DNA from: Butyrivibrio sp.
GTDB lineage: Bacteria > Bacillota > Clostridia > Lachnospirales > Lachnospiraceae
Reading direction: 5' to 3'
Assembly: GCA_024692165.1 (NCBI GenBank)
Contig: JAILMY010000149.1
Location: 1 to 59,677, forward strand
Length of the DNA stretch: 59,677 nt
Part shown: positions 42,439-55,655 of the stretch, in pieces
Layout of the letters: each line of letters begins with the position of its first letter
How positions within the stretch are numbered: position 1 is the stretch's first letter
Notes under the pieces: generated by a model
Told to the model about the DNA's origin: nothing
What the model saw: the letters and a program-made list of their open reading frames with translations, nothing else
Databases searched by the model: none
Translations under genes and position numbers: made by a program

Positions 42439-44505
42439 ATGAAAAAATTTAGTCTTAGAGCCAAAATGTTGATGTGCATTCTTCCTGTTATGGCTATAGC
42501 GATGATTCTTTTAACATATATCGCTGCAAGTTCCAGCCGTACAGCCATCAGAAATGCAACAACAACAGAGATGCAGCAGACATTGCAGGCTAATGTTAAC
42601 AGTGTGGATGGAAATCTGGAAATCATCAGAAATACCTGTGTTAACATTGCGGCTATGGTATCTACTTCCTACAGATTTGTTCAGATGGATGGCTACAAGG
42701 AAACTCTTACGAAGATCATAAACGAGAATGATTCAATTCTCGGTGCCGGTCTTTGGTTTGAGCCAAACACTGTTAATCCTGATGAAAAATATATTGGCCC
42801 TTATTGGTATAAAGACGGCGGTTCGGTTGTGGAGACCTGGGACTATAGTAATGCTGAATACGACTATTTCACTCAGGAATACTATACAAATGCCAAGGCT
42901 CTTTCAGAAGGACAGGCTGTGATAACAAATCCATATTATGACCCTACATCAGGACTTATCATGTCCAGTTGCTCAGCTCCCATATATGAGGGATCCACAT
43001 TTGTCGGCTGCGTGACTGTTGATATGGAGCTTTCCAATATTACAGACATGGTATCCGACATAAAGGTGGGGAGGACCGGAAAAGCATTATTGACAGCAGA
43101 AAATGGTCAATACATCTACACGGATGATGAGCAAAAGGTCCAGAACGAGACTTATATTCAAGACGAATCAAATGCTTCCCTTGTAAATACTGCAAAGATT
43201 ATGCTTTCTTCTGCAGATGGCATTGGAATGGGTGGTTATGTCGATGATTCAGGAAAAGGCATAGTTCTCACTTATACAACAATTCCTGAAGTAAACTGGA
43301 AGATGGCAATTCAGATGAATGAAGAGGAGATGGACGAGGAGGTAACTAATCTTCTTAAAACTCTTATCCTTGTTTGTGTTGTGGCTCTTTTGATTGGCGC
43401 CGTAATTATCCTGGTATTCGTAATGAGCATCTGCAAGAGTATCAATAACGTTAAGCAATTCGCTTCTGTTCTTGCCAGTGGCGACTTTACAATTGATAAG
43501 CTCAGAAATAACAGAGGCGATGAGCTTGGACAGATGAGCGATTCCCTCAATGAAATGTTTGAGAATAATAAGGATGTTATCTCCAAGATTTCTAACGGGT
43601 CAGTCGAAGTCAGCGAGACATCCAACGGCCTGGCAAACATGGCAAACGAGCTGTCGCAGCAGTTCACATCGATCCAGGGAAATATCTCCGGTGTCAATGA
43701 TGCTATGATGTCATCCGGAGCTGCAACAGAGCAGGTTAATGCTTCCGTTGAGGAAGTAAATGCATCTGTTCATCAGCTGGCTGCTGAGACAGAAAAGACA
43801 AGCTCCGAGGCTACAGATATCAAGTCCAGAGCAAGAGAGATTGAAAAAGAAAGTAAGTCTGCTTACGATTATGCTATCAATATTGCAGAGCAGAGAGAAG
43901 CTGATCTGGTAGAGGCCAATGAGAAGGCTAAGGTTGTTGATCAGATTGGAACTCTGGCTGATACAATTGCTGAGATTGCAGATCAGATCAACCTGCTTTC
44001 ACTTAATGCTTCAATTGAGGCTGCAAGAGCAGGAGATGCAGGTAAGGGATTTGCGGTAGTTGCTTCCGAGATCAACAAGCTGGCCAGCAGCACATCTGAG
44101 GCGGTTGAGCAGATCAGAGAAACTATCGATGGTGTACAGGAAGCATTCGGGACCCTTTCAAGTTCTTCAGGAGAACTGCTTACATTCATCAAAGATACAG
44201 TTACACCTGACTATGACAAGTTCGTAACTGTTGCAAAACAGTATGGAAATGATGCAGGATCCTTTGGTGATTCATCCGAGAATATCGCTCAGATGGTTGA
44301 GAACATCAGAGCATCCATGGAAGAGGTTAGTAAGGCGATTCAGAATATTGCCGAGTCCACTCAGGATACAGCAGATCTTTCCAGCCAGGTTAATGATTCC
44401 GTTATGGCTGCTGCAGATGTGGTATCCAACGTTAATGAGATGACGAATAAGCAGGAATCCGTAGCAGGAACTTTGAAGGATATTGTTGGAAGATTCAAAC
44501 TGTAG
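42439..44505 (+). CDS. Methyl-accepting chemotaxis protein with dCache-like sensor
   Basis: TM-Cache-TM-HAMP; [36 protein letters not shown]. Confidence 0.93.
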
Positions 44506-44525
44506 ATAAATATTCAGAAATAATG

Positions 44526-44560
44526 GGCGTCGGACCTAAAAATCCGGCGCTTTTTCTTTT
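44526..44560 (+). terminator. Intrinsic terminator
   Basis: gcgtcgga / tccggcgc then tttttctttt. Confidence 0.75.
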
Positions 44561-44678
44561 GACAAGTATGAAATTGTGTTATTATAAATATAGTATTTAT
44601 CAGTACATTTTTATTATTGTTCTGAATACGATTCTAAAATTTCTTTAAATCTAGTTGAGTTTATAAGGGGGATAAAAT

Positions 44679-45821
44679 ATGGCTCATAATGAGATGCTCG
44701 CTATGATCCTGGCCGGTGGACGAGGAAGCAGGCTTAGAGATCTTACTAATAAGGTTGCTAAGCCGGCGGTTTATTATGGTGGCAAGTATCGTATCATTGA
44801 TTTTCCACTCAGTAATTGTGCGAATAGCGGAATTGACACAGTAGGTGTTCTGACACAGTACGAATCAGTACTTTTGAACAGTTACGTTGCTCAGGACGGA
44901 CGCTGGGGGCTTGACTCCAAGGACAGCGGTGTGTATGTTCTTACACCCCGTGAGAAGGCTGATGAGGGGCTTGATGTATACAGGGGAACGGCTGATGCTA
45001 TTTCACAGAATATAGATTTCATCGATAATTACAATCCTGAATATATTCTGGTTCTTTCAGGTGATCATATCTATAAGATGAATTATGCAAAAATGCTTTC
45101 ATTTCACAAGAAGATGGGAGCTGATGCAACCATTGCTGTAAGACCTGTTCCCATGAAGGAAGCCAGCCGCTTCGGTATCATGAATACTGATGCAGACGGC
45201 AGGATCATTGAATTTGAGGAAAAACCCAAGAAGCCAAAGAGCAATCTTGCTTCTATGGGTATCTATATCTTTAGCTGGAAGCTCATGAGAAAGATGCTGG
45301 TTGAGGATATGAACAATCCGGAATCAGATCATGACTTTGGAAAAGACATTATTCCAAGGATGCTCTCCGACAAGAAGAAACTCTTTGCTTATGAATTCAA
45401 GGGCTATTGGAAGGATGTAGGAACAATCGATTCTCTCTGGGAAGCCAACATGGATCTTCTTGAGACGAAGAATGAGCTTAATCTTAATGATTCTTCATGG
45501 CTGATTTACACAGAGGATGTTTCCACACTTCCTCAGTACATCGGCAAGAATGCCAAGATCAAGAAGGCGTACATAACACAGGGCGTCAGAGTAGAAGGCA
45601 GTGTTACGAATTCAGTTCTTTTCACAGGAGCTGTTGTGGCACCGGGAGCCAGAGTTGTTGATTCGGTACTGATGCCGGGAGTTGTGGTAGAAGATGGAGC
45701 AACTGTGACAAGAGCCCTTGTGGCAGAAAATGTTCATATCGGCAAAAAAGCCAAGGTTGGCAGCAAGACCAGTGAAGAGATCACTCTTGTGGCAAATGAT
45801 GTGAAGGGAGGTACAAAATAA
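44679..45821 (+). CDS. glgC: Glucose-1-phosphate adenylyltransferase catalytic subunit
   Basis: [71 protein letters not shown]. Confidence 0.96.
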
Positions 45822-46942
45822 TGTCAGCATTCAGAGCTTTCGGAATAGTATCTTCCGCAGATAACAGTATTCACGTTGAGGGGCTTCATGACTACAGACC
45901 AATCGGTGCTTTTTCGTTCCTTGGAAGATTCCGGGTAATTGACTTCCCAATCTCTAACATGAGCAATTCCGGAATGGACAGAATCCAGGTTTATTTGCGT
46001 ACAAGACCAAGATCAATCGCAGAGCATATCGGATCAGGAAGACATTACAACATCAACTCCAAACGTGGTAAGATCCAGATGCTTTTCTCAGAGGATAATA
46101 ACCAGCACAATATCTACAACAATGATATTGCTGCTTACATGGAGAACATTGATATCATCGAGAGAATGCATCAGGAGTATGTGATAATCGCACCAAGCTA
46201 CATGGTTTACAAGCAGGATTATTGCCAGCTTCTTGAGACACATATCCAGTCCGGAGCAGAGGTTACACTTCTCTATCACAGAGTAGAGAATGCCAGGGAC
46301 TATTATCAGAACTGCCGACTGGTTACCGTAAACAGACAAAAGGGTATCACATCCTTAGAGAGAAACCTTGGAACAGCCAAGGAGAAGAATATCTTCATGG
46401 ATACCTATTGCATGAAGAAGGAAGTATTCATAGGACTTATAAGAGCAGCGCATGAGCTGTCATCCGTATATACTCTTGCAGACATAATCGGTATCAGGTG
46501 CAAGGATATGGATATCAGAGGCTATCAGCACAAGGGATATTTTGCATCTCTTCTTAGCCTTTCAGATTACTACAGAGCTTCTCTTGATCTTCTTGATTAC
46601 AATATGGCAAGTGGACTGTTTAGTAACAGCTGGCCTATTTACACAAGAACCACCGACTCTTGTCCTACCAAGTATTTTGAGACAGCCAAGGTTGAGAATT
46701 CCTTTATCTCAAACGGATGTCTGGTGGAAGGTACTGTTGAGGATTCCATCGTAGGCCGTGGTGTTACCATCAAGAAGGGTGTTACCATTAAGAACTCCAT
46801 CATTATGGCTCACAGCGTCATCGAAGAGGGAGTGCATATTGAGAATGCTATCGTGGATAAATGGGCACATATTATTCATGCCAAGGAAATCCGCGGAACA
46901 ATAGAGCAGCCTCAGTACATAAAGAGAAGAGATACCTTGTGA
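45821..46942 (+). CDS. glgD: Glucose-1-phosphate adenylyltransferase regulatory subunit
   Basis: Divergent GlgC paralog (RPIGAFSFLGRFRVIDFPISNMSNSGM), translationally coupled to glgC. Confidence 0.94.
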   Translation: MSAFRAFGIVSSADNSIHVEGLHDYRPIGAFSFLGRFRVIDFPISNMSNSGMDRIQVYLRTRPRSIAEHIGSGRHYNINSKRGKIQMLFSEDNNQHNIYNNDIAAYMENIDIIERMHQEYVIIAPSYMVYKQDYCQLLETHIQSGAEVTLLYHRVENARDYYQNCRLVTVNRQKGITSLERNLGTAKEKNIFMDTYCMKKEVFIGLIRAAHELSSVYTLADIIGIRCKDMDIRGYQHKGYFASLLSLSDYYRASLDLLDYNMASGLFSNSWPIYTRTTDSCPTKYFETAKVENSFISNGCLVEGTVEDSIVGRGVTIKKGVTIKNSIIMAHSVIEEGVHIENAIVDKWAHIIHAKEIRGTIEQPQYIKRRDTL

Positions 46943-46963
46943 TAATTTAACATGTATGATTTG

Positions 46964-47003
46964 ACAAAGACCATGGGAGATGCGCCCGTGGTCTTTGTTT
47001 TAT
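46964..47003 (+). terminator. Intrinsic terminator after glgD
   Basis: acaaagaccatggg / cccgtggtctttgt then tttattg. Confidence 0.85.
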
Positions 47004-47116
47004 TGTCTGCAAGTTGACGCAATTTAATAAAAATATAATACTTTTTGAATTGGGTTTTTGTTACAATATACTTAAGTGGGAGTATGTCTTTTTACCTGTT
47101 GAAAGGAGACATTTTT

Positions 47117-48343
47117 ATGTTAGCAACCTTAATTCCTTTATTCGACGATAATATGCTTGTGTGCGCATATTCGGTTTTTGCGCGTAAAGAGAACCACTTT
47201 CTAAACCCAAGTCTGGAAGGTGGCGCAAGATTTGACGGTGCAGGCACAGTTCACGAGCTTGAAGTTGTCAGCAATATGGGTGTTGCTACGCTTTCAGGAG
47301 GCAAGGAAGTTTTTGTTCCCGTTAACCAGTTCTCTGTTTTTGCGGAAATCTCTCTGCAGTGCACTGTTCCTTCCAACAAGGTTGTCCTTCTTATGGACAA
47401 TACTATTGTCCCAAACGCACAGTATGTTAAAAGGATAAAAGAACTGAAGGAACAGGGTTACAAGCTGGCTATCAGAAAGCTCCCCATTTCAGAATTTGAA
47501 AACTACAGAGAAATACTTGCTAAATGCGATTATATCCTTCTTAACCATGAAAAAATCGATATCAGCAAGGCTAAGGTATATTTCAATAAGGTCTATCCAA
47601 ATATTAAGCTCTGCGCCGTAAATGTGGATACTCTGGAGGAGTACGAAAATCTTAAGGCAGATGGCGGATACGATCTATACGAGGGAACCTTCTTCAGAAT
47701 GCCTGTGAAGCAATCCCAAACCGAAGTTAATCCTCTTAAGGTAAACTATATTGAACTTTTAAATGTTGTTAATGCTCCGGATTTTGATCTTCAGAAAGCA
47801 GCAGATGTAATCGGAAAGGACCCGGCTCTTGTCATTTCTCTTTTGGAAATGGTAAACAGAATGGCTCTGAATTCTGAGATTACATCCATTCGTCATGCAG
47901 CAGCAATGCTGGGACAAAAAGAACTTAAGCGATGGATCAATACCGCTGTAACAAAGGAACTTTGCGCAGATAAGCCAAGTGAGATAACAAGGCTTGCTAT
48001 TATCAGAGCAAAATTTGCTGAGAATCTGGCGGAATGCTTCGATTTGGCGATGATGGATCAGGAGCTTTTCATCATGGGTCTTTTCTCTGCTCTTGATATC
48101 ATGCTTGAGAAAACTATGGAAGAAGCACTTAATATGGTGAAGGTATCAAAGAATATCAGAGATGCACTGCTGGAAAATAAGGGAGATTTTGCAAAGGTCC
48201 TGAACTTCATGAAACGTTATGATGATGCTGATTGGACTGAAGTCTCCAGGATCATGGTTCTGGAAAATATAGATATGGATAAGGTGTATGATTCTTACCT
48301 TAATGCTCTCAAGTGGTATCGAGATCTTATTCCTCAGAAGTAA
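47117..48343 (+). CDS. YuxH-like degenerate EAL-HDOD protein
   Basis: EAL-fold region without E-A-L catalytic motif, then HDOD (IELLNVVNAPDFDLQKAADVIGKDPALVISLLEMVN, SIRHAAAMLGQKELKRWI). ATG 47117 after aaaggagac. Confidence 0.85.
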   Translation: MLATLIPLFDDNMLVCAYSVFARKENHFLNPSLEGGARFDGAGTVHELEVVSNMGVATLSGGKEVFVPVNQFSVFAEISLQCTVPSNKVVLLMDNTIVPNAQYVKRIKELKEQGYKLAIRKLPISEFENYREILAKCDYILLNHEKIDISKAKVYFNKVYPNIKLCAVNVDTLEEYENLKADGGYDLYEGTFFRMPVKQSQTEVNPLKVNYIELLNVVNAPDFDLQKAADVIGKDPALVISLLEMVNRMALNSEITSIRHAAAMLGQKELKRWINTAVTKELCADKPSEITRLAIIRAKFAENLAECFDLAMMDQELFIMGLFSALDIMLEKTMEEALNMVKVSKNIRDALLENKGDFAKVLNFMKRYDDADWTEVSRIMVLENIDMDKVYDSYLNALKWYRDLIPQK

Positions 48344-48400
48344 TGCTTTGCCTGCTGTAATATTCAGACCTGCAGGTAGTGGCGCCTGAGAGGTAGACAT

Positions 48401-51400
48401 ATGCTTGGTATAGACGGCGTAGGCAGTATCACCTTTAATTTTGCTGCCATATTAATTAGCATCACTTGTATATTTTATTCCTTGATAATGAATAACAGAT
48501 ATCGTCTTCGTGGACGTTTATTTGTTGCGCTTTGTTCAATAGTCGCTCTTGATGCTCTTGCAGGAATATTGGTTGAGCTGATAGGAGCGGCTTCTTTTTC
48601 ATACAACATCAAGTTCTGCTTAGCCAATGCAATACAGCTTCTGTATTTTTTGACGCATTTTGCAATTGCTCCGATGTTTGCCCTCTATATCATCCTTACC
48701 TGCAACGTGCAATACAGATTCCCCAAGTGGGCCAGGTGTGCCGTAAGTATTCCGTTTGTAATAATGGAGATGATGGTTTTTATAAGCCCCATCATAAACT
48801 TTGTTTTTTACATTGATGAGAACCTGATATTTCATAGAAGAGGCGGCGTTTATTTTGCCTACATAATCAGCGCATTTTATATTATTTTTGCAATGGTGGT
48901 TCTTTTCCTTTACTGGAATTATCTGACAAGAGTAAGAAGAATCGCCATAATCTATTTCTTTATTCTTGTATCTATCGGAACACTGCTTCAGATGTTTGTG
49001 GTTGAGATCAGAAGTGAGCTCATGTCAGAAGCTATAGGCTTTATGGGCCTTATGATGATGTTGGAAAATGATGATGACAGAATAGACGTATCCACCAGGG
49101 CCTATAACCGAAATGCGTTCATGCTGGATACAAGCACCTATTTCAAATACAAAAGAAGCTTCTACACCATATGTATCAGGATACAGAATGCGGACATTTA
49201 CAGAAAAATAGCAGGCTACGAGGAATATGAGAAATTCCAGGCAACAGTTGTGGATTTCCTCTCAAGGCTTGATAAGAACAACGATGTATACAGACTGGCG
49301 GTGGATACATATATCGTGATATGTCCGGAAGTAAGCGATGAAACGGCTAATTTTTACGCGTATCAGATACGAGAGAGGTTCCTTGGAGAATGGAAGCACA
49401 AGGATAACTATATTATCCTGAAGTCCCTGATCCTTTTGGCAAACTCTCCGCGGCAGTTTGCCAGCACAGATTACCTGCTGCTTCTTTGTGACAGCAAAAT
49501 AGATATTGAGAGTGACAGAGTACTTACAGGCAGTGACCTTGACTTCCTTCTTCGAAGATCCGATGTGGAGATGGCCCTTAAAAGAGGCTTCATGGATGGT
49601 AACTTCAGGGTCTACTTTGAACCTATTTATTTGAGAATTGACAGGTCCATATGTGCTGCACAGGCAGTGCCAATGCTTATGGATCCTGATCTGGGGGTTA
49701 TTAAAGCCGATGAATTTATTCCGGTGGCAGACCAGGCAGGACTTATTGATCATGTGGGATTTTATGTCATTGAACAGGTACTGTCCTTTCTTGGAGGCGG
49801 TATTGTCAATGAAATGGGCGTTGAGGCTATCAGTATAAATCTTTCGTCAGTCCAGATGATCAAATCCGATTTTGTGGAGAGAATATTAAAGCTTCTTAAG
49901 GAAAACAACGTTCAGCCGGGAAGGTTTGTCATGGAGATTCCTGAGACCATGGCAACGTCTGATCAGAGCGTGCTTATTCCTGTTATGCAGAGATTACAGA
50001 AGGCAGGAATCAGGTTTTATCTGGATCAGTTCGGCACCGGATTTTTTAACATGCAGTCAAAAGCAGCCTCTTTGTTTGAAGGCGTAAAGATAGATGCTTC
50101 CCTGCTGCTTAATGCGGTTGACTTTCCTCAGACCCGTATCATTTTGGAAAACAGACTTAGAATGATCGGCCAGATGGGTAAGTCAATAGATATTGTAAAA
50201 GTAGACACCCAGGAGGCTTTGGAAAGCCTTTCGAATATAAAGTTTGATTTTTTCCATGGAGAATTTTTCTCGGAACCAATCAGTAAAAATGAGCTTCTTG
50301 CTATCCTCAGGGCAACTGAAATGGCAAGAGTGGAGGAGAGAAGGGCAAGGGCAGCTAACGAGGCAAAGAGCAATTTCCTTGCAAATATGTCCCATGAGAT
50401 TCGAACTCCTATAAATGCCGTCCTTGGTATGAATGAGGTGATCCTCAGGGAGTCCAAGGATGAAAGAATCCTTGAATATGCCCAGAACATTGAGGCTGCC
50501 GGAAGAACTCTTTTATCTCTTATAAATGATATTCTGGATTTCTCAAAGATAGAAGCCGGAAGCATGGAGATTCACGAGGCGGATTACGAGCTTAGCTCGG
50601 TTCTCAATGATATTTATAACATGATTAGTATAAAAGCGCAGCAGAAAGATCTTGCGCTTGTTCTTGATGTGGACAGCACACTTCCGGATAAGCTGTACGG
50701 CGATGAGATGCGCCTTAGACAGGTGGTTGTAAATGTTCTGAATAATGCCATTAAGTATACCCAGGAGGGTAGTGTCACCCTTAAGGTTACGGGAGACAGA
50801 AATTATGACAACAGCCTGAATTTAAAGATCGATGTAACTGATACCGGAATGGGTATTAAGGATGATGACCTGGACAATCTCTTTGAGAAGTTCAAGAGAC
50901 TTGATGTAGATAAAAACAGAGAGGTGGAAGGAAGTGGTCTGGGACTGGCCATTACAAGTTCTCTGCTTGAGCTTATGGGAGGATCTATTTCTGTAAAGAG
51001 TAAATACGGAGAGGGATCCACCTTTACCATCGTGCTTCCTCAGGGTGTAAGGGACGAAGCACAGATCGGAAACTTCAAAGAGAGGATTGTCAGAAATATA
51101 AAGGAGAGAAAGGCCTATAAGGAGAAGTTTAAAGCTCCTGAGGCAGAGATCCTTGTGGTTGATGATACTCCGATGAATCATGTGGTTATCCAGGAGCTTC
51201 TTAAGACCACAAAGATCAGAATTGACAGCGCTAAAAGCGGAATGGAATGCCTTGAAAAACAGCATCAAAAGAAATACGACATTATTTTCCTGGACTATCG
51301 TATGCCGGGAATGGACGGATCAGAAACCTTCGATGCAATCAAGGCAGACAGTGAATCACCTAATTTAAATACTCCGATCATTGTTCTTACCGCCAATGCA

Positions 51401-52201
51401 ATTTCAGGGGCGAGAGAGAACTTCCTTAGGTATGGCTTTGATGCGTACTTAAGTAAGCCTATTGAAAGTGATAAGCTGGAAGCTACGCTTATAAAGTTCC
51501 TTCCGGAGGATAAAGTTCTTCTCACTACAGATGAGTTTGATGAAGAGGAAGATGCTTCTGAAGATGTACAGAGGCAAAAAGAAAGCGGCAGTTCATATGA
51601 TAACAGAGACTGGATGAACAACCTTGAAGGAGTAGAGACCGGCGAAGGAATAAAGAACTGCGGAACTGTAGAAAGCTATATAGAAATCCTGAAGGTTTAC
51701 TATGAATCTATAGAAAGCTCCAGGAACAATATTGAAACCGCCTATGCTGATGAGAACTGGAAGGACTACACAAGCTATGTTCATTCCTTAAAGAGCACCA
51801 GCAGAACCATTGGTGCCATGGAACTTTCAAAGCTGTCAGCTCAGCTGGAAGAAGCCGGAAATAACAATGACCTGGACACCATAAGAAGCAATCATCATGT
51901 TCTGCTTGATATGTATTCAAGCATTAAATCCAGCCTGGATAATGTTCAGGAGATAGCAGGCAAAGAGGAAGAAGATACCGATAAGCCTGAAATTACAAAG
52001 GCTCAGCTTATGGACGCCTATAATACTATCCTGGAAGTGAGCAAAATTCTGGACTTTGATACACTGCAGTTTGTACTAGATTCTATTAAGGGCTATAAAC
52101 TGCCGGCAAATGATAAGGAGATAATTACAAGGATATCTGAGCTGGCATATACACTTAAGTGGGATGAAATAACCAAGATCGTACAGGAGAGACTGGGATG
52201 A
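48401..52201 (+). CDS. Hybrid sensor kinase: 7TM - degenerate GGDEF - degenerate EAL - HisKA - HATPase - REC - HPt
   Basis: NMSHEIRTPINAVLGMNEVIL, DTGMGIKDDDLDNLFEKF, GSGLGLAI, ILVVDDTPMN, YVHSLKSTSRTIGA; RLAVDTYIVICP where GGDEF expected, AQAVPML where EAL expected. Confidence 0.9.
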   Translation: MLGIDGVGSITFNFAAILISITCIFYSLIMNNRYRLRGRLFVALCSIVALDALAGILVELIGAASFSYNIKFCLANAIQLLYFLTHFAIAPMFALYIILTCNVQYRFPKWARCAVSIPFVIMEMMVFISPIINFVFYIDENLIFHRRGGVYFAYIISAFYIIFAMVVLFLYWNYLTRVRRIAIIYFFILVSIGTLLQMFVVEIRSELMSEAIGFMGLMMMLENDDDRIDVSTRAYNRNAFMLDTSTYFKYKRSFYTICIRIQNADIYRKIAGYEEYEKFQATVVDFLSRLDKNNDVYRLAVDTYIVICPEVSDETANFYAYQIRERFLGEWKHKDNYIILKSLILLANSPRQFASTDYLLLLCDSKIDIESDRVLTGSDLDFLLRRSDVEMALKRGFMDGNFRVYFEPIYLRIDRSICAAQAVPMLMDPDLGVIKADEFIPVADQAGLIDHVGFYVIEQVLSFLGGGIVNEMGVEAISINLSSVQMIKSDFVERILKLLKENNVQPGRFVMEIPETMATSDQSVLIPVMQRLQKAGIRFYLDQFGTGFFNMQSKAASLFEGVKIDASLLLNAVDFPQTRIILENRLRMIGQMGKSIDIVKVDTQEALESLSNIKFDFFHGEFFSEPISKNELLAILRATEMARVEERRARAANEAKSNFLANMSHEIRTPINAVLGMNEVILRESKDERILEYAQNIEAAGRTLLSLINDILDFSKIEAGSMEIHEADYELSSVLNDIYNMISIKAQQKDLALVLDVDSTLPDKLYGDEMRLRQVVVNVLNNAIKYTQEGSVTLKVTGDRNYDNSLNLKIDVTDTGMGIKDDDLDNLFEKFKRLDVDKNREVEGSGLGLAITSSLLELMGGSISVKSKYGEGSTFTIVLPQGVRDEAQIGNFKERIVRNIKERKAYKEKFKAPEAEILVVDDTPMNHVVIQELLKTTKIRIDSAKSGMECLEKQHQKKYDIIFLDYRMPGMDGSETFDAIKADSESPNLNTPIIVLTANAISGARENFLRYGFDAYLSKPIESDKLEATLIKFLPEDKVLLTTDEFDEEEDASEDVQRQKESGSSYDNRDWMNNLEGVETGEGIKNCGTVESYIEILKVYYESIESSRNNIETAYADENWKDYTSYVHSLKSTSRTIGAMELSKLSAQLEEAGNNNDLDTIRSNHHVLLDMYSSIKSSLDNVQEIAGKEEEDTDKPEITKAQLMDAYNTILEVSKILDFDTLQFVLDSIKGYKLPANDKEIITRISELAYTLKWDEITKIVQERLG

Positions 52202-52959
52202 ATAAAAAGATTCTGCTTGTTAGAAAAGATGAAACGTTTTTGGTAAATGCTATAAAGAATGCCCTTATCACCAACAGGTTTCAGGTAGTGGATTCTTCAT
52301 ACAGCATAGGAGATCTGAGCACAAAAAAGCAGGGAGTGGATCTGATAATCCTGTACACAGATCAGGACTTTGAAGAGTACATGGAAGCCCTTGTGTATAT
52401 CAAGGATATGTGTATTGAAGAAAACATGATAATCCTTGTGATCGGAGATAAGGATGCCTTTGAGCTTGTCCACCAATATATTCCCAAGGAGGACATAGCC
52501 TTTGAAGTCACAAGACCCCTTGATATGGCAAATCTCATGGATAAGGTTGCCACTGCTACGGATGATGAATTTGAGATCAAGCGTAGAAAATGCATCCTGA
52601 TCGTGGATGATGATCCCACATTTATTCAGATGGTAAGAGAGTGGCTAAAGGATACCTACAGGGTTGGAATGGCCAACTCGGGAACCCAGGCTATTGCATG
52701 GCTTGCCACAAATAAAGCGGATCTTATTCTGCTGGACTATGATATGCCTGTTCTTGATGGCCCAAAGGTTATGGAAATGCTCCGCAGCGAGTCTTTTTCC
52801 CAATCCACACCGGTTATGTTCCTTACCGGAAAAAATGACCGTGACTCTGTAACCAACGTTATTTCTTTAAAACCTGCGGATTATCTTCTCAAATCCATCA
52901 GCAGGGATAAACTGCTCGGCACTCTTGATAAGTTCTTTAAGCAAAAGGTAAATGGATAA
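52198..52959 (+). CDS. Response regulator with pseudo-receiver plus canonical receiver domain
   Basis: First half LLVRKDE lacks acidic pocket; second half CILIVDDDPTF, LILLDYDMPVLDG, FLTGK. Confidence 0.87.
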   Translation: MNKKILLVRKDETFLVNAIKNALITNRFQVVDSSYSIGDLSTKKQGVDLIILYTDQDFEEYMEALVYIKDMCIEENMIILVIGDKDAFELVHQYIPKEDIAFEVTRPLDMANLMDKVATATDDEFEIKRRKCILIVDDDPTFIQMVREWLKDTYRVGMANSGTQAIAWLATNKADLILLDYDMPVLDGPKVMEMLRSESFSQSTPVMFLTGKNDRDSVTNVISLKPADYLLKSISRDKLLGTLDKFFKQKVNG

Positions 52960-52962
52960 AGC

Positions 52963-54933
52963 ATGGACATTGAAATGATTGACAGCATGACCTATAGAAT
53001 TGCTGGCGCTATTATCTGCATAACCTGCCTGTTCTATTCGACTATGATGCGAAAGAGATATCGCGTCAGGAGTCGTCTGTTTACCATGCTTGTTATTATT
53101 GTCCTTATTGATTCTCTGACTGATGTAGTTTCTTATCTGGCCGTAACATACGGCATTACGGACACCTTCAAGTGGATAATATCATATCTGGCAGAAATGA
53201 CTTATTATTTTACCCACGTAGGTATGATGCCGGTATTTGTCTTTTATATAATTACTATTTGCGGAGTAAGATACAGACTAAGCAGATTTCAGCACTTTGC
53301 CCTGAAGTTCCCGATCATCGTGCTGGAACTTATGCTGCTCTCCAATCCTCTTACCCAATACTTTTTCGTCATAGTAGCTAAGTTTGACTATGCAAGAGGC
53401 ATAGGTATTTATTTGTCCTATGCTGTTTCGGTTTATTATATCGGAGTCGGAGTTTTTCTTCTGATTAAATTCTGGTATACCATTAACGCAACAAAAAAGA
53501 TTGCCATGGTATATTTCCTTTCATTGGCTGTTGGCGGAACTTTGATCCAGATGCTGTTCCCGGGGATCAAGTGCGAGCTCATGTGCGAAGCTATCGGTCT
53601 TACCGGAATCATGCTCATGATTGAAAAAGACGATGACAGGACTGATATGATATCCATGGCCTATAACCGACTGGCCTTTGTACAGGACATGAAGAGCCTG
53701 TTTCTTATGAAAAGAGAATTCAGTGCCATCTGTCTTAGACTGGAAAATCTCGACATGTATCGCAAGATTTACGGAGAAGAAGTGATTGATCCTCTTCTTA
53801 AATCATTGGCTTCATTTTTCATGGAGGATGGAACAGAGACCAACGCATATCATACGGCCTATAATGTGTTCTATATTGTAAATTCTGAAATGACTGATTG
53901 GGAGACCAATAACCTGGCGGAAGCCACTGAAATACGTATGAAGAAGCCTTGGGTCATTAATGACACGGAGTTTTTATTTGATTTCAATATTCTGCTTGGC
54001 AAATGCCCTGAGCAGTTTAGCAGTGTTAATGATCTGTTCCTTTTAGAGAGCGTTGATCTTAAGAGGCAGGAAAAGAATTTCTTAAGAAATACAGACCTTA
54101 ACTTCCTCATAAGAAGAATGGAAGTGGAAAAGGCCATTGGTCGTGGAATTCAGGAAAAGAGCTTTGCCATTTACTATCACCCGGTGTATCAGCAGGAGAA
54201 TAATTGTATTAAGCTGGCACAGGTATACCTTAAGTTGCATGATTCTCTCATGGGTGATATACAAACCGCAGAGTTCATGGAAGTTGCGGAGAATTCAGGA
54301 TTTCTTGAGGAACTTCAGTTAAGGACCATAGAGGGCGTATGCAGGTTTTTATCCAGTGGCGTCGACAAATCCGACATGCAGATTGATTTTGTGCTGCTGC
54401 CGATAATGTCTGCCCGTATGATCAAGAGAGAACTCTTTAACAAAATATCCGAAAATATCAAGAGATTTAATATTGATGCTTCACTTCTTGCCTTTGTACT
54501 TAAGGAGTCCGACGCCCTGGGAGCTAAGGATGAGCTTGAAAAAATGAAAGGGGCAATAGAAAATCTGGGGGTAAGAACCTATATAAGTGACTATGAAGCC
54601 GGATTTCTTGGCATCAATACAATTGCAAATATAGATTTTGAAGGCGTTATTCTGGACATGAGTAAAATCTTTGAAACCTCCAATCAGGAAAGTGCAGAGA
54701 TCGTCCTCCGGAACAGAACCACCATGATCAGACAGCTGGATAAGAAGATAATCATCTCCGGAATAGACAACGGATATTATTATGGTAAGATTAAGGATGT
54801 ACCATACGACTATATGGAGGGTAATTACCTTTCCAGGGAAGTAACAAGGAACGAATTGCAGAATAAATTCTGGCATGGAGAACATCTTATTTTCCATGAG
54901 GATGGAGTTGAAAGGGTTTCTGACGAATACTGA
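52963..54933 (+). CDS. 7TM - degenerate GGDEF - degenerate EAL protein (paralog of the N-terminal half of the hybrid kinase)
   Basis: Collinear similarity to 48401 product (ITCLFYSTMMRKRYRVRSRLF; CEAIGLTGIMLMIEKDDDRTDMISMAYNRLAFV) with no catalytic motifs. Confidence 0.87.
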   Translation: MDIEMIDSMTYRIAGAIICITCLFYSTMMRKRYRVRSRLFTMLVIIVLIDSLTDVVSYLAVTYGITDTFKWIISYLAEMTYYFTHVGMMPVFVFYIITICGVRYRLSRFQHFALKFPIIVLELMLLSNPLTQYFFVIVAKFDYARGIGIYLSYAVSVYYIGVGVFLLIKFWYTINATKKIAMVYFLSLAVGGTLIQMLFPGIKCELMCEAIGLTGIMLMIEKDDDRTDMISMAYNRLAFVQDMKSLFLMKREFSAICLRLENLDMYRKIYGEEVIDPLLKSLASFFMEDGTETNAYHTAYNVFYIVNSEMTDWETNNLAEATEIRMKKPWVINDTEFLFDFNILLGKCPEQFSSVNDLFLLESVDLKRQEKNFLRNTDLNFLIRRMEVEKAIGRGIQEKSFAIYYHPVYQQENNCIKLAQVYLKLHDSLMGDIQTAEFMEVAENSGFLEELQLRTIEGVCRFLSSGVDKSDMQIDFVLLPIMSARMIKRELFNKISENIKRFNIDASLLAFVLKESDALGAKDELEKMKGAIENLGVRTYISDYEAGFLGINTIANIDFEGVILDMSKIFETSNQESAEIVLRNRTTMIRQLDKKIIISGIDNGYYYGKIKDVPYDYMEGNYLSREVTRNELQNKFWHGEHLIFHEDGVERVSDEY

Positions 54934-55655
54934 TGGGAGAAAATAAAGAGGGCGCAGGGAGCCTCAAGGTAACAGGGATAGATGTTTCTTTTTTGGAAGA
55001 TGGAAAGATTTTTGACTTTTGGTATGACAAAATGCCTGTTTCCCGCAGACAGAAAATAGATCTGGTAAAACCTTTAAAGGGTAAACTTTTATCGCTTGGT
55101 GCCGGGATCCTTTTTACCGAGGGACTTAAGAAGCTTGGTTTGGAAGGGGCTGAGATTGGCCTTTTGGAAAATAAAAAACCATATATTATTGGCGCAGATG
55201 GTCTGTACTTTAACCTGTCACATTCAGGAGGTATGGCTGTGTGCGCTTTTTCTGATTCCGAAGTGGGAATAGATATAGAAAAGAACAAGGAATTTAAGGA
55301 TAGCCTTGTGGACTATGTCTTCGATGACCGGGAAAAAGAGTTTGTTTCAAGGCTTTCAGATGATGACAATAAGAGAAATGCTCTTTTTACAAGTATCTGG
55401 ACCATGAAGGAAAGCATCATGAAGTTTACCGGAAAGGGCATATCCATGGTGCCAAAGAGTATATTTGTGGATTTGTCAGCTGCTGACAATATGGGTGATA
55501 TGAGCGTAGCGGCAATTTACCATAACGGGAAGCTGATTCCTGAACTTAAGCTGTCAACACTTAGGATTCCCGCAAATCCGGATTATCAGGTGTGTGTATG
55601 CTCTAAGTATGCTTTATCTTCAAGGGACATCGAGATGTTTGATCATAGGTCCTGA
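54933..55655 (+). CDS. Sfp-type 4'-phosphopantetheinyl transferase
   Basis: FNLSHSGGMAVCA, VGIDIEKNK, FTSIWTMKESIMKFTGKG. Confidence 0.92.
   Translation: MGENKEGAGSLKVTGIDVSFLEDGKIFDFWYDKMPVSRRQKIDLVKPLKGKLLSLGAGILFTEGLKKLGLEGAEIGLLENKKPYIIGADGLYFNLSHSGGMAVCAFSDSEVGIDIEKNKEFKDSLVDYVFDDREKEFVSRLSDDDNKRNALFTSIWTMKESIMKFTGKGISMVPKSIFVDLSAADNMGDMSVAAIYHNGKLIPELKLSTLRIPANPDYQVCVCSKYALSSRDIEMFDHRS

Follow-up and report, generated by a model that had tools for sequence, protein, structure and literature searches.

Proteins with dead GGDEF and EAL domains are common and have been studied mostly as receptors of cyclic di-GMP (c-di-GMP) in Proteobacteria. LapD of Pseudomonas fluorescens (PMC3032553) is a membrane protein with dead GGDEF and EAL domains whose EAL fold is used for signalling and not for catalysis. 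SgmT of Myxococcus xanthus (PMC3509222) is a hybrid histidine kinase with a GGDEF-type regulatory module, ShkA of Caulobacter (PMC7010744) works in a phosphorelay with a pseudo-receiver domain, and RgsP of Sinorhizobium (PMC6107284) joins a polytopic membrane region to a degenerate GGDEF and an EAL domain. In Escherichia coli, GGDEF/EAL proteins form interaction networks (PMC5635695). Each of the four systems shares traits with a gene set that we analyzed in Butyrivibrio sp., on contig JAILMY010000149.1 of assembly GCA_024692165.1 (positions 1 to 59,677, forward strand; this whole stretch of 59,677 nucleotides (nt) is called the window). The set encodes a hybrid kinase (HYB), a regulator (RR) and a kinase-less membrane protein (TM2). 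Taken as a whole it is best explained, in our estimate at somewhat better than even odds, as a three-gene membrane phosphorelay gated by decayed pseudo-enzyme domains.

HYB (48401..52201, + strand, 1266 amino acids (aa)) was recognized by Pfam as EAL-HisKA-HATPase_c-REC-HPt. Together with residue alignments and an AlphaFold2 fold, this divided the protein into membrane helices (1-225), pseudo-GGDEF (226-385), pseudo-EAL (386-640; 49556..50320, + strand), HisKA/HATPase (641-890, with H665), REC (906-1040, with D965) and HPt (1086-1180, with H1128), followed by a C-terminal region. Pfam did not recognize the GGDEF half and found no HAMP linker. The AlphaFold2 model of residues 1-645 (predicted local distance difference test (pLDDT) 81.6) showed eight membrane helices, then a GGDEF-like and an EAL fold. 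A preliminary description of the locus, made from the sequence alone, had labelled the N-terminal part seven-transmembrane (7TM): the polytopic membrane part was retained, the clean seven helices were not. In Foldseek searches the model aligned over about 416-431 columns with solved GGDEF-EAL tandems (MorA 4rnh, E = 7e-25; LapD 6pwk, E = 5e-18) and also matched the PA0575 and DosP tandems and LapD 3pjw.

Alignment with solved EAL domains showed that the pseudo-EAL of HYB keeps five of ten catalytic and pocket residues (N480, E512, E515, D542 and K563). The Glu of the EAL motif (E421Q), the second Asp of DDFG (D543Q), the conserved Gln (Q619H) and both EGVE glutamates (E599V and E602D) are lost. 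By the same procedure, nearly all pocket residues were found to be missing from TM2, and catalysis by an EAL phosphodiesterase is thus not expected of either protein. The GGDEF position reads AVDTY in HYB and AYNVF in TM2, with no consensus across orthologs. The GGDEF/GGEEF signature being missing, diguanylate cyclase activity is not expected either, and an RxxD I-site is absent from the HYB sequence. This agrees with the preliminary description, which had called the motifs dead and both activities improbable; intact catalytic motifs, sought by careful alignment, were present in neither GGDEF/EAL pair. A degenerate GGDEF is common to all six other compared members of the 7TM-GGDEF-EAL family, five of which have intact EAL residues, so that the one special feature of this operon is its loss of the EAL pocket. 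The family is greatly expanded: at E < 1e-10, the genome to which the window belongs gave 18 hits for the 7TM-GGDEF-EAL half.

TM2 (52963..54933, + strand, 656 aa) consists of membrane helices, a pseudo-GGDEF and a pseudo-EAL domain, the last found by Pfam and by alignment. In a tree, TM2 and the N-terminal half of HYB formed sister clades with full support (100/100), which identifies TM2 as a kinase-less twin of this half, that is, the product of an old duplication. RR (52198..52959, + strand, 253 aa) carries an Asp-less pseudo-receiver (REC*, aa 1-125) and an intact receiver (D180), of which Pfam reported one REC. The first receiver lacks its Asp throughout the orthologs and D180 of the second is conserved; no DNA-binding or enzymatic output domain was found in RR. 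A phage origin of RR was considered and rejected, as the matches were short, weak receiver matches. HYB and RR overlap by 4 nt (ATGA) and a 3-nt gap separates RR from TM2. The set is flanked by genes for an HDOD protein, after which a 57-nt gap is read from the sequence, and a phosphopantetheinyl transferase (PPTase), which TM2 overlaps by 1 nt (TGATG). Each of the five genes is an intact open frame at the coordinates first noted, and Pfam together with the junctions confirmed the domain layout and the close spacing from 48401 on.

The set was present in 31 of the 61 sampled genomes of the genus, with HYB identities of 43-100% and a fixed order HYB-RR-TM2 wherever the contig was long enough. 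In five or six further genus genomes the genes are diverged and stand, completely or in part, in the order HYB-TM2-RR. The named relatives belong to Butyrivibrio, a few to Pseudobutyrivibrio and others to unclassified Lachnospiraceae. A wider search covered 299 genomes of the family (the window's own and 298 others, about one per genus), at least four of the 298 having full-length HYB relatives (G295, G062, G172 and G240); in a class-wide sample (n=291) full-length HYB matches fell within Lachnospiraceae only. Both wider searches scored the top two candidates per genome, and their counts are lower bounds. The gene-order survey, in support of the preliminary description, showed the kinase and its 7TM twin to be co-conserved neighbours, and the conserved unit is the three genes HYB-RR-TM2, without the HDOD or PPTase gene.

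Natural deletions divide this unit further. In one clade (G024, G047 and G036; support 100/99) HYB ends after the pseudo-GGDEF, leaving a 380-aa protein of helices and pseudo-GGDEF (L121:5846-6988, L122:8395-9537 and L123:8481-9623). Both the kinase half and RR have been lost at these loci, where TM2 and HDOD remain. No RR ortholog was found elsewhere in these three genomes, only paralogs of 36-40% identity. This joint loss supports the view that the kinase half and RR function as a pair, from which the membrane pseudo-enzymes can be separated as a second one, and it agrees with the tie between HK-REC-HPt kinase and REC-REC regulator proposed before. In two other genomes (G001 and G031) the whole set is missing at the site and HDOD is followed directly by the PPTase. 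Other genera combine the pair of HK-REC-HPt and REC*-REC proteins with different sensors (dCache, Reg_prop propeller). Similarly, paralog sets within the genus (L171, L173 and L174) combine a hybrid kinase, with a Reg_prop propeller sensor in L171, and a REC*-REC regulator. A further gene in L171 and L174 encodes a 7TM-HD-GYP protein, its HD motif intact in L174 and altered in L171.

We then compared the conservation of the two halves of HYB. The phosphorelay residues (HisKA His, HATPase_c, REC Asp and HPt His) are intact and conserved: H665, D965 and H1128 were invariant in 46 of 46 aligned kinases, nine of them distant, in line with the phosphorelay first described. Mean pairwise identity among 37 main-lineage sequences was 0.76 for the kinase domain, 0.73 for REC and 0.83 for the second receiver of RR, against 0.58 for the pseudo-EAL, 0.54 for the 7TM part, 0.49 for the pseudo-GGDEF and 0.41-0.45 for TM2. 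The EAL pocket residues were counted as well. All ten are kept in a Lachnospiraceae metagenome-assembled genome (L166), and L132-L134, from three other genera, each keep nine of ten; within Butyrivibrio, the main lineage keeps one to six and the diverged set three to five. The replacements vary by species (421 Q/E/R/M/S; 480 G/N/K; 619 K/Q/H/T; 599 variable). This is the pattern of released constraint rather than of a conserved altered receptor site, and the kinase of Butyrivibrio, now gated by a pseudo-enzyme, thus appears to be the decayed form of a sensor kinase of EAL type. The protein with the complete pocket (L166:4030-7941) is the same hybrid kinase, adjoins two relatives of the N-terminal half and is possibly a c-di-GMP-hydrolysing or -sensing hybrid kinase.

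In the model that we propose, HYB and TM2 would dimerise in the membrane, each with itself or with the other, through the helices and the pseudo-GGDEF/EAL domains of both. A signal at the membrane part, at the altered EAL pocket or from the state of the twin would change the dimer and switch HYB autophosphorylation. Phosphate would pass from H665 to D965, then to H1128 of the HPt domain and to D180 in the second receiver of RR. Since RR has no output domain, it would act by binding a partner. The 7TM-HD-GYP gene in the L171 and L174 paralog sets suggests as this partner a neighbouring c-di-GMP-type membrane protein, here most likely TM2. As to origin, a 7TM-GGDEF*-EAL sensor whose c-di-GMP pocket was still intact may have joined the widespread Lachnospiraceae module of HK-REC-HPt and REC*-REC proteins; the pocket would have decayed later, in the Butyrivibrio lineage, while the kinase was under strong constraint. 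The architecture, the lost residues, the invariant relay residues, the conserved gene order and the joint loss are observations; from them we infer dimerisation, the signal, the direction of phosphate flow and the partner of RR.

Several observations weigh against this model. TM2 evolves fastest and is possibly dispensable, and in a relative from genus g236 (L131/L176) HYB and RR stand without a TM2 ortholog alongside. The partner of RR is a guess from the neighbourhood, and the HD-GYP proteins of the paralog sets resemble the 7TM part weakly (16-20 bits). Also, E515, D542 and K563 of HYB are fairly conserved, which leaves room for ligand binding. In the main rival reading, HYB and TM2 would be LapD-like receptors whose degenerate domains still bind c-di-GMP and thereby place the phosphorelay under its control. 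The modelled HYB fold does match GGDEF-EAL tandems, that of LapD among them, nine or ten of the ten pocket residues are kept by HYB homologs from other genera, and degenerate or kinase-linked c-di-GMP receptors are established (LapD, PMC3032553; SgmT, PMC3509222; ShkA, PMC7010744). However, the pocket residues drift by species in Butyrivibrio, TM2 keeps almost none of them and the RxxD I-site is absent, which weakens the c-di-GMP sensing first suggested for these proteins and leads us to regard this rival as unlikely. That the EAL/GGDEF fold senses another ligand or the twin protein and not c-di-GMP, making HYB a dead-enzyme-gated kinase with all stages of decay preserved in related genera, is a tentative proposal on our part; the altered pocket may have taken a new ligand with loose requirements. 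The set could also be a relic, an old c-di-GMP enzyme operon that is losing function and is kept by drift, as the fast evolution of TM2 and the pseudo-domains, the truncated clade and the clade without the set might suggest. Dozens of species have full-length frames, the relay residues are invariant and mean identity is 0.76-0.83 in the kinase and the second receiver, which makes this highly improbable.

A different output was hinted at by the preliminary description, namely that the operon may couple membrane signalling to carrier-protein activation through the PPTase (54933..55655, + strand; Pfam ACPS, PF01648). The enzyme is a complete Sfp-type PPTase of more than 200 aa with intact GIDIEK and W-x-x-KES (WTMKES) motifs, and carrier proteins are present. 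One relative shares the 1-nt overlap with TM2 seen in the window, four further species show short gaps or overlaps, and co-transcription with the set is likely in this clade. But the PPTase is not co-conserved, an outcome that the preliminary description had itself named as contradicting the link. Of 35 loci only six have it after the set (the window, L142, L143, L033, L035 and L036), and these six species group together in the HDOD tree (fork 88/77). The sister pair AE3009/MC2021 (L098 and L099) has no PPTase at the site and PrsW directly after TM2, and in two species the PPTase stands beside HDOD without the set. Its surroundings elsewhere are unrelated (a Na/Ala symporter with a LytTR regulator, cyclophilin, fructose bisphosphatase, FtsX). 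A PPTase was present in 35 of 35 near-complete genus genomes, with or without the signalling set. It is the sole PF01648 match in the window's genome (assembly 87% complete), and among 19 near-complete genus genomes 18 had one PPTase and one had two. AcpS (TIGR00516) was not detected in 12 genus genomes by a search that was positive in 8 of 14 controls, including E. coli and B. subtilis. Being the only detectable PPTase, in genomes where no AcpS was detected and independently of the set, the enzyme is probably a housekeeping one and a neighbour by position. A cyanobacterial precedent exists for an Sfp-type PPTase required for fatty acid synthesis (PMC5605751). The gene-order and copy-number surveys refute the PPTase as a general output of the operon, and we give this coupling almost no credence. 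A tempting link is thereby removed, the enzyme being apparently the sole PPTase, placed there by history. In a Lachnospiraceae sample AcpS scored above the family cut-off in only 32 of 150 genomes.

The gene at the other end of the locus encodes a YuxH-like HDOD protein of 408 aa (47117..48343, + strand). Its description as EAL-HDOD stood for the HDOD half (Pfam, 2.3e-13), and the N-terminal, putative EAL half was weakly recognisable: Pfam found no EAL, alignment to EAL by hhalign was weak (P=11.6%, E=0.0026) and the AlphaFold model was poor (pLDDT 52). An ortholog, usually single and usually just 5' of the set, was present in 57 of the 61 genus genomes whether the set was there or not. HDOD was accordingly rejected as a dedicated component; it is a genus-core gene that persists where the set is gone. 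A strong terminator-like hairpin lies 3' of glgD (46963..46999, + strand; a 15-pair stem with a T-rich tail, the longest of eight stems found). As this stem stands between glgD and HDOD, HDOD and not glgCD probably heads the transcript. The promoter-like site 5' of HDOD (TTGAAT-16-TATACT, 47045..47072, + strand) is a consensus match only, such sites being no more frequent than in shuffled sequences. No c-di-GMP riboswitch or other Rfam RNA scored over threshold in the window. A dCache chemoreceptor gene, glgC and glgD (42439-46942 in the window) adjoin HDOD in many Butyrivibrio; glgCD stand beside it in either orientation, and the adjacency outlasts inversion. In 13 loci outside the window clade, HDOD is immediately preceded by a gene for a family 2 glycosyltransferase (for example L032:9750-10670).

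In related bacteria, one kinase architecture with a fixed kinase half is found in three states, its c-di-GMP pocket being complete, nearly complete or ruined, and comparing these stages would reveal the role of a pseudo-EAL sensor that no longer needs its ligand. A search for work on fusions of EAL domains to kinases in Lachnospiraceae and on c-di-GMP signalling in Butyrivibrio gave no paper that describes this layout, subscription journals lying mostly outside the search.

The closest described systems each differ from the set in several respects. LapD has a HAMP domain and a periplasmic output domain and has kept c-di-GMP binding, whereas HYB has polytopic helices, a fusion to a hybrid kinase and a decayed pocket, and no HAMP. 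SgmT carries an N-terminal GAF and a C-terminal, c-di-GMP-binding GGDEF domain and has a DNA-binding partner, DigR; HYB has N-terminal helices and a GGDEF-EAL pair without I-site, and its regulator RR is without a DNA-binding domain. The pseudo-receiver of ShkA lies inside the kinase, where it binds c-di-GMP and so activates the kinase; that of the present set is in the separate RR. RgsP, a 7TM receptor with PAS-GGDEF-EAL domains, differs by its periplasmic 7TMR-DISMED2 domain, by an EAL domain that is active and by the lack of a kinase. Nearer relatives are the Lachnospiraceae two-gene modules of adjacent HK-REC-HPt and REC*-REC genes (for example L141, L169, L171 and L180), homologous in the kinase half and the regulator. 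They differ by their sensors (dCache or a Reg_prop propeller), and two paralog sets of the genus add the 7TM-HD-GYP gene. None of the compared systems, LapD, SgmT, ShkA and RgsP, has the HYB-RR-TM2 layout.

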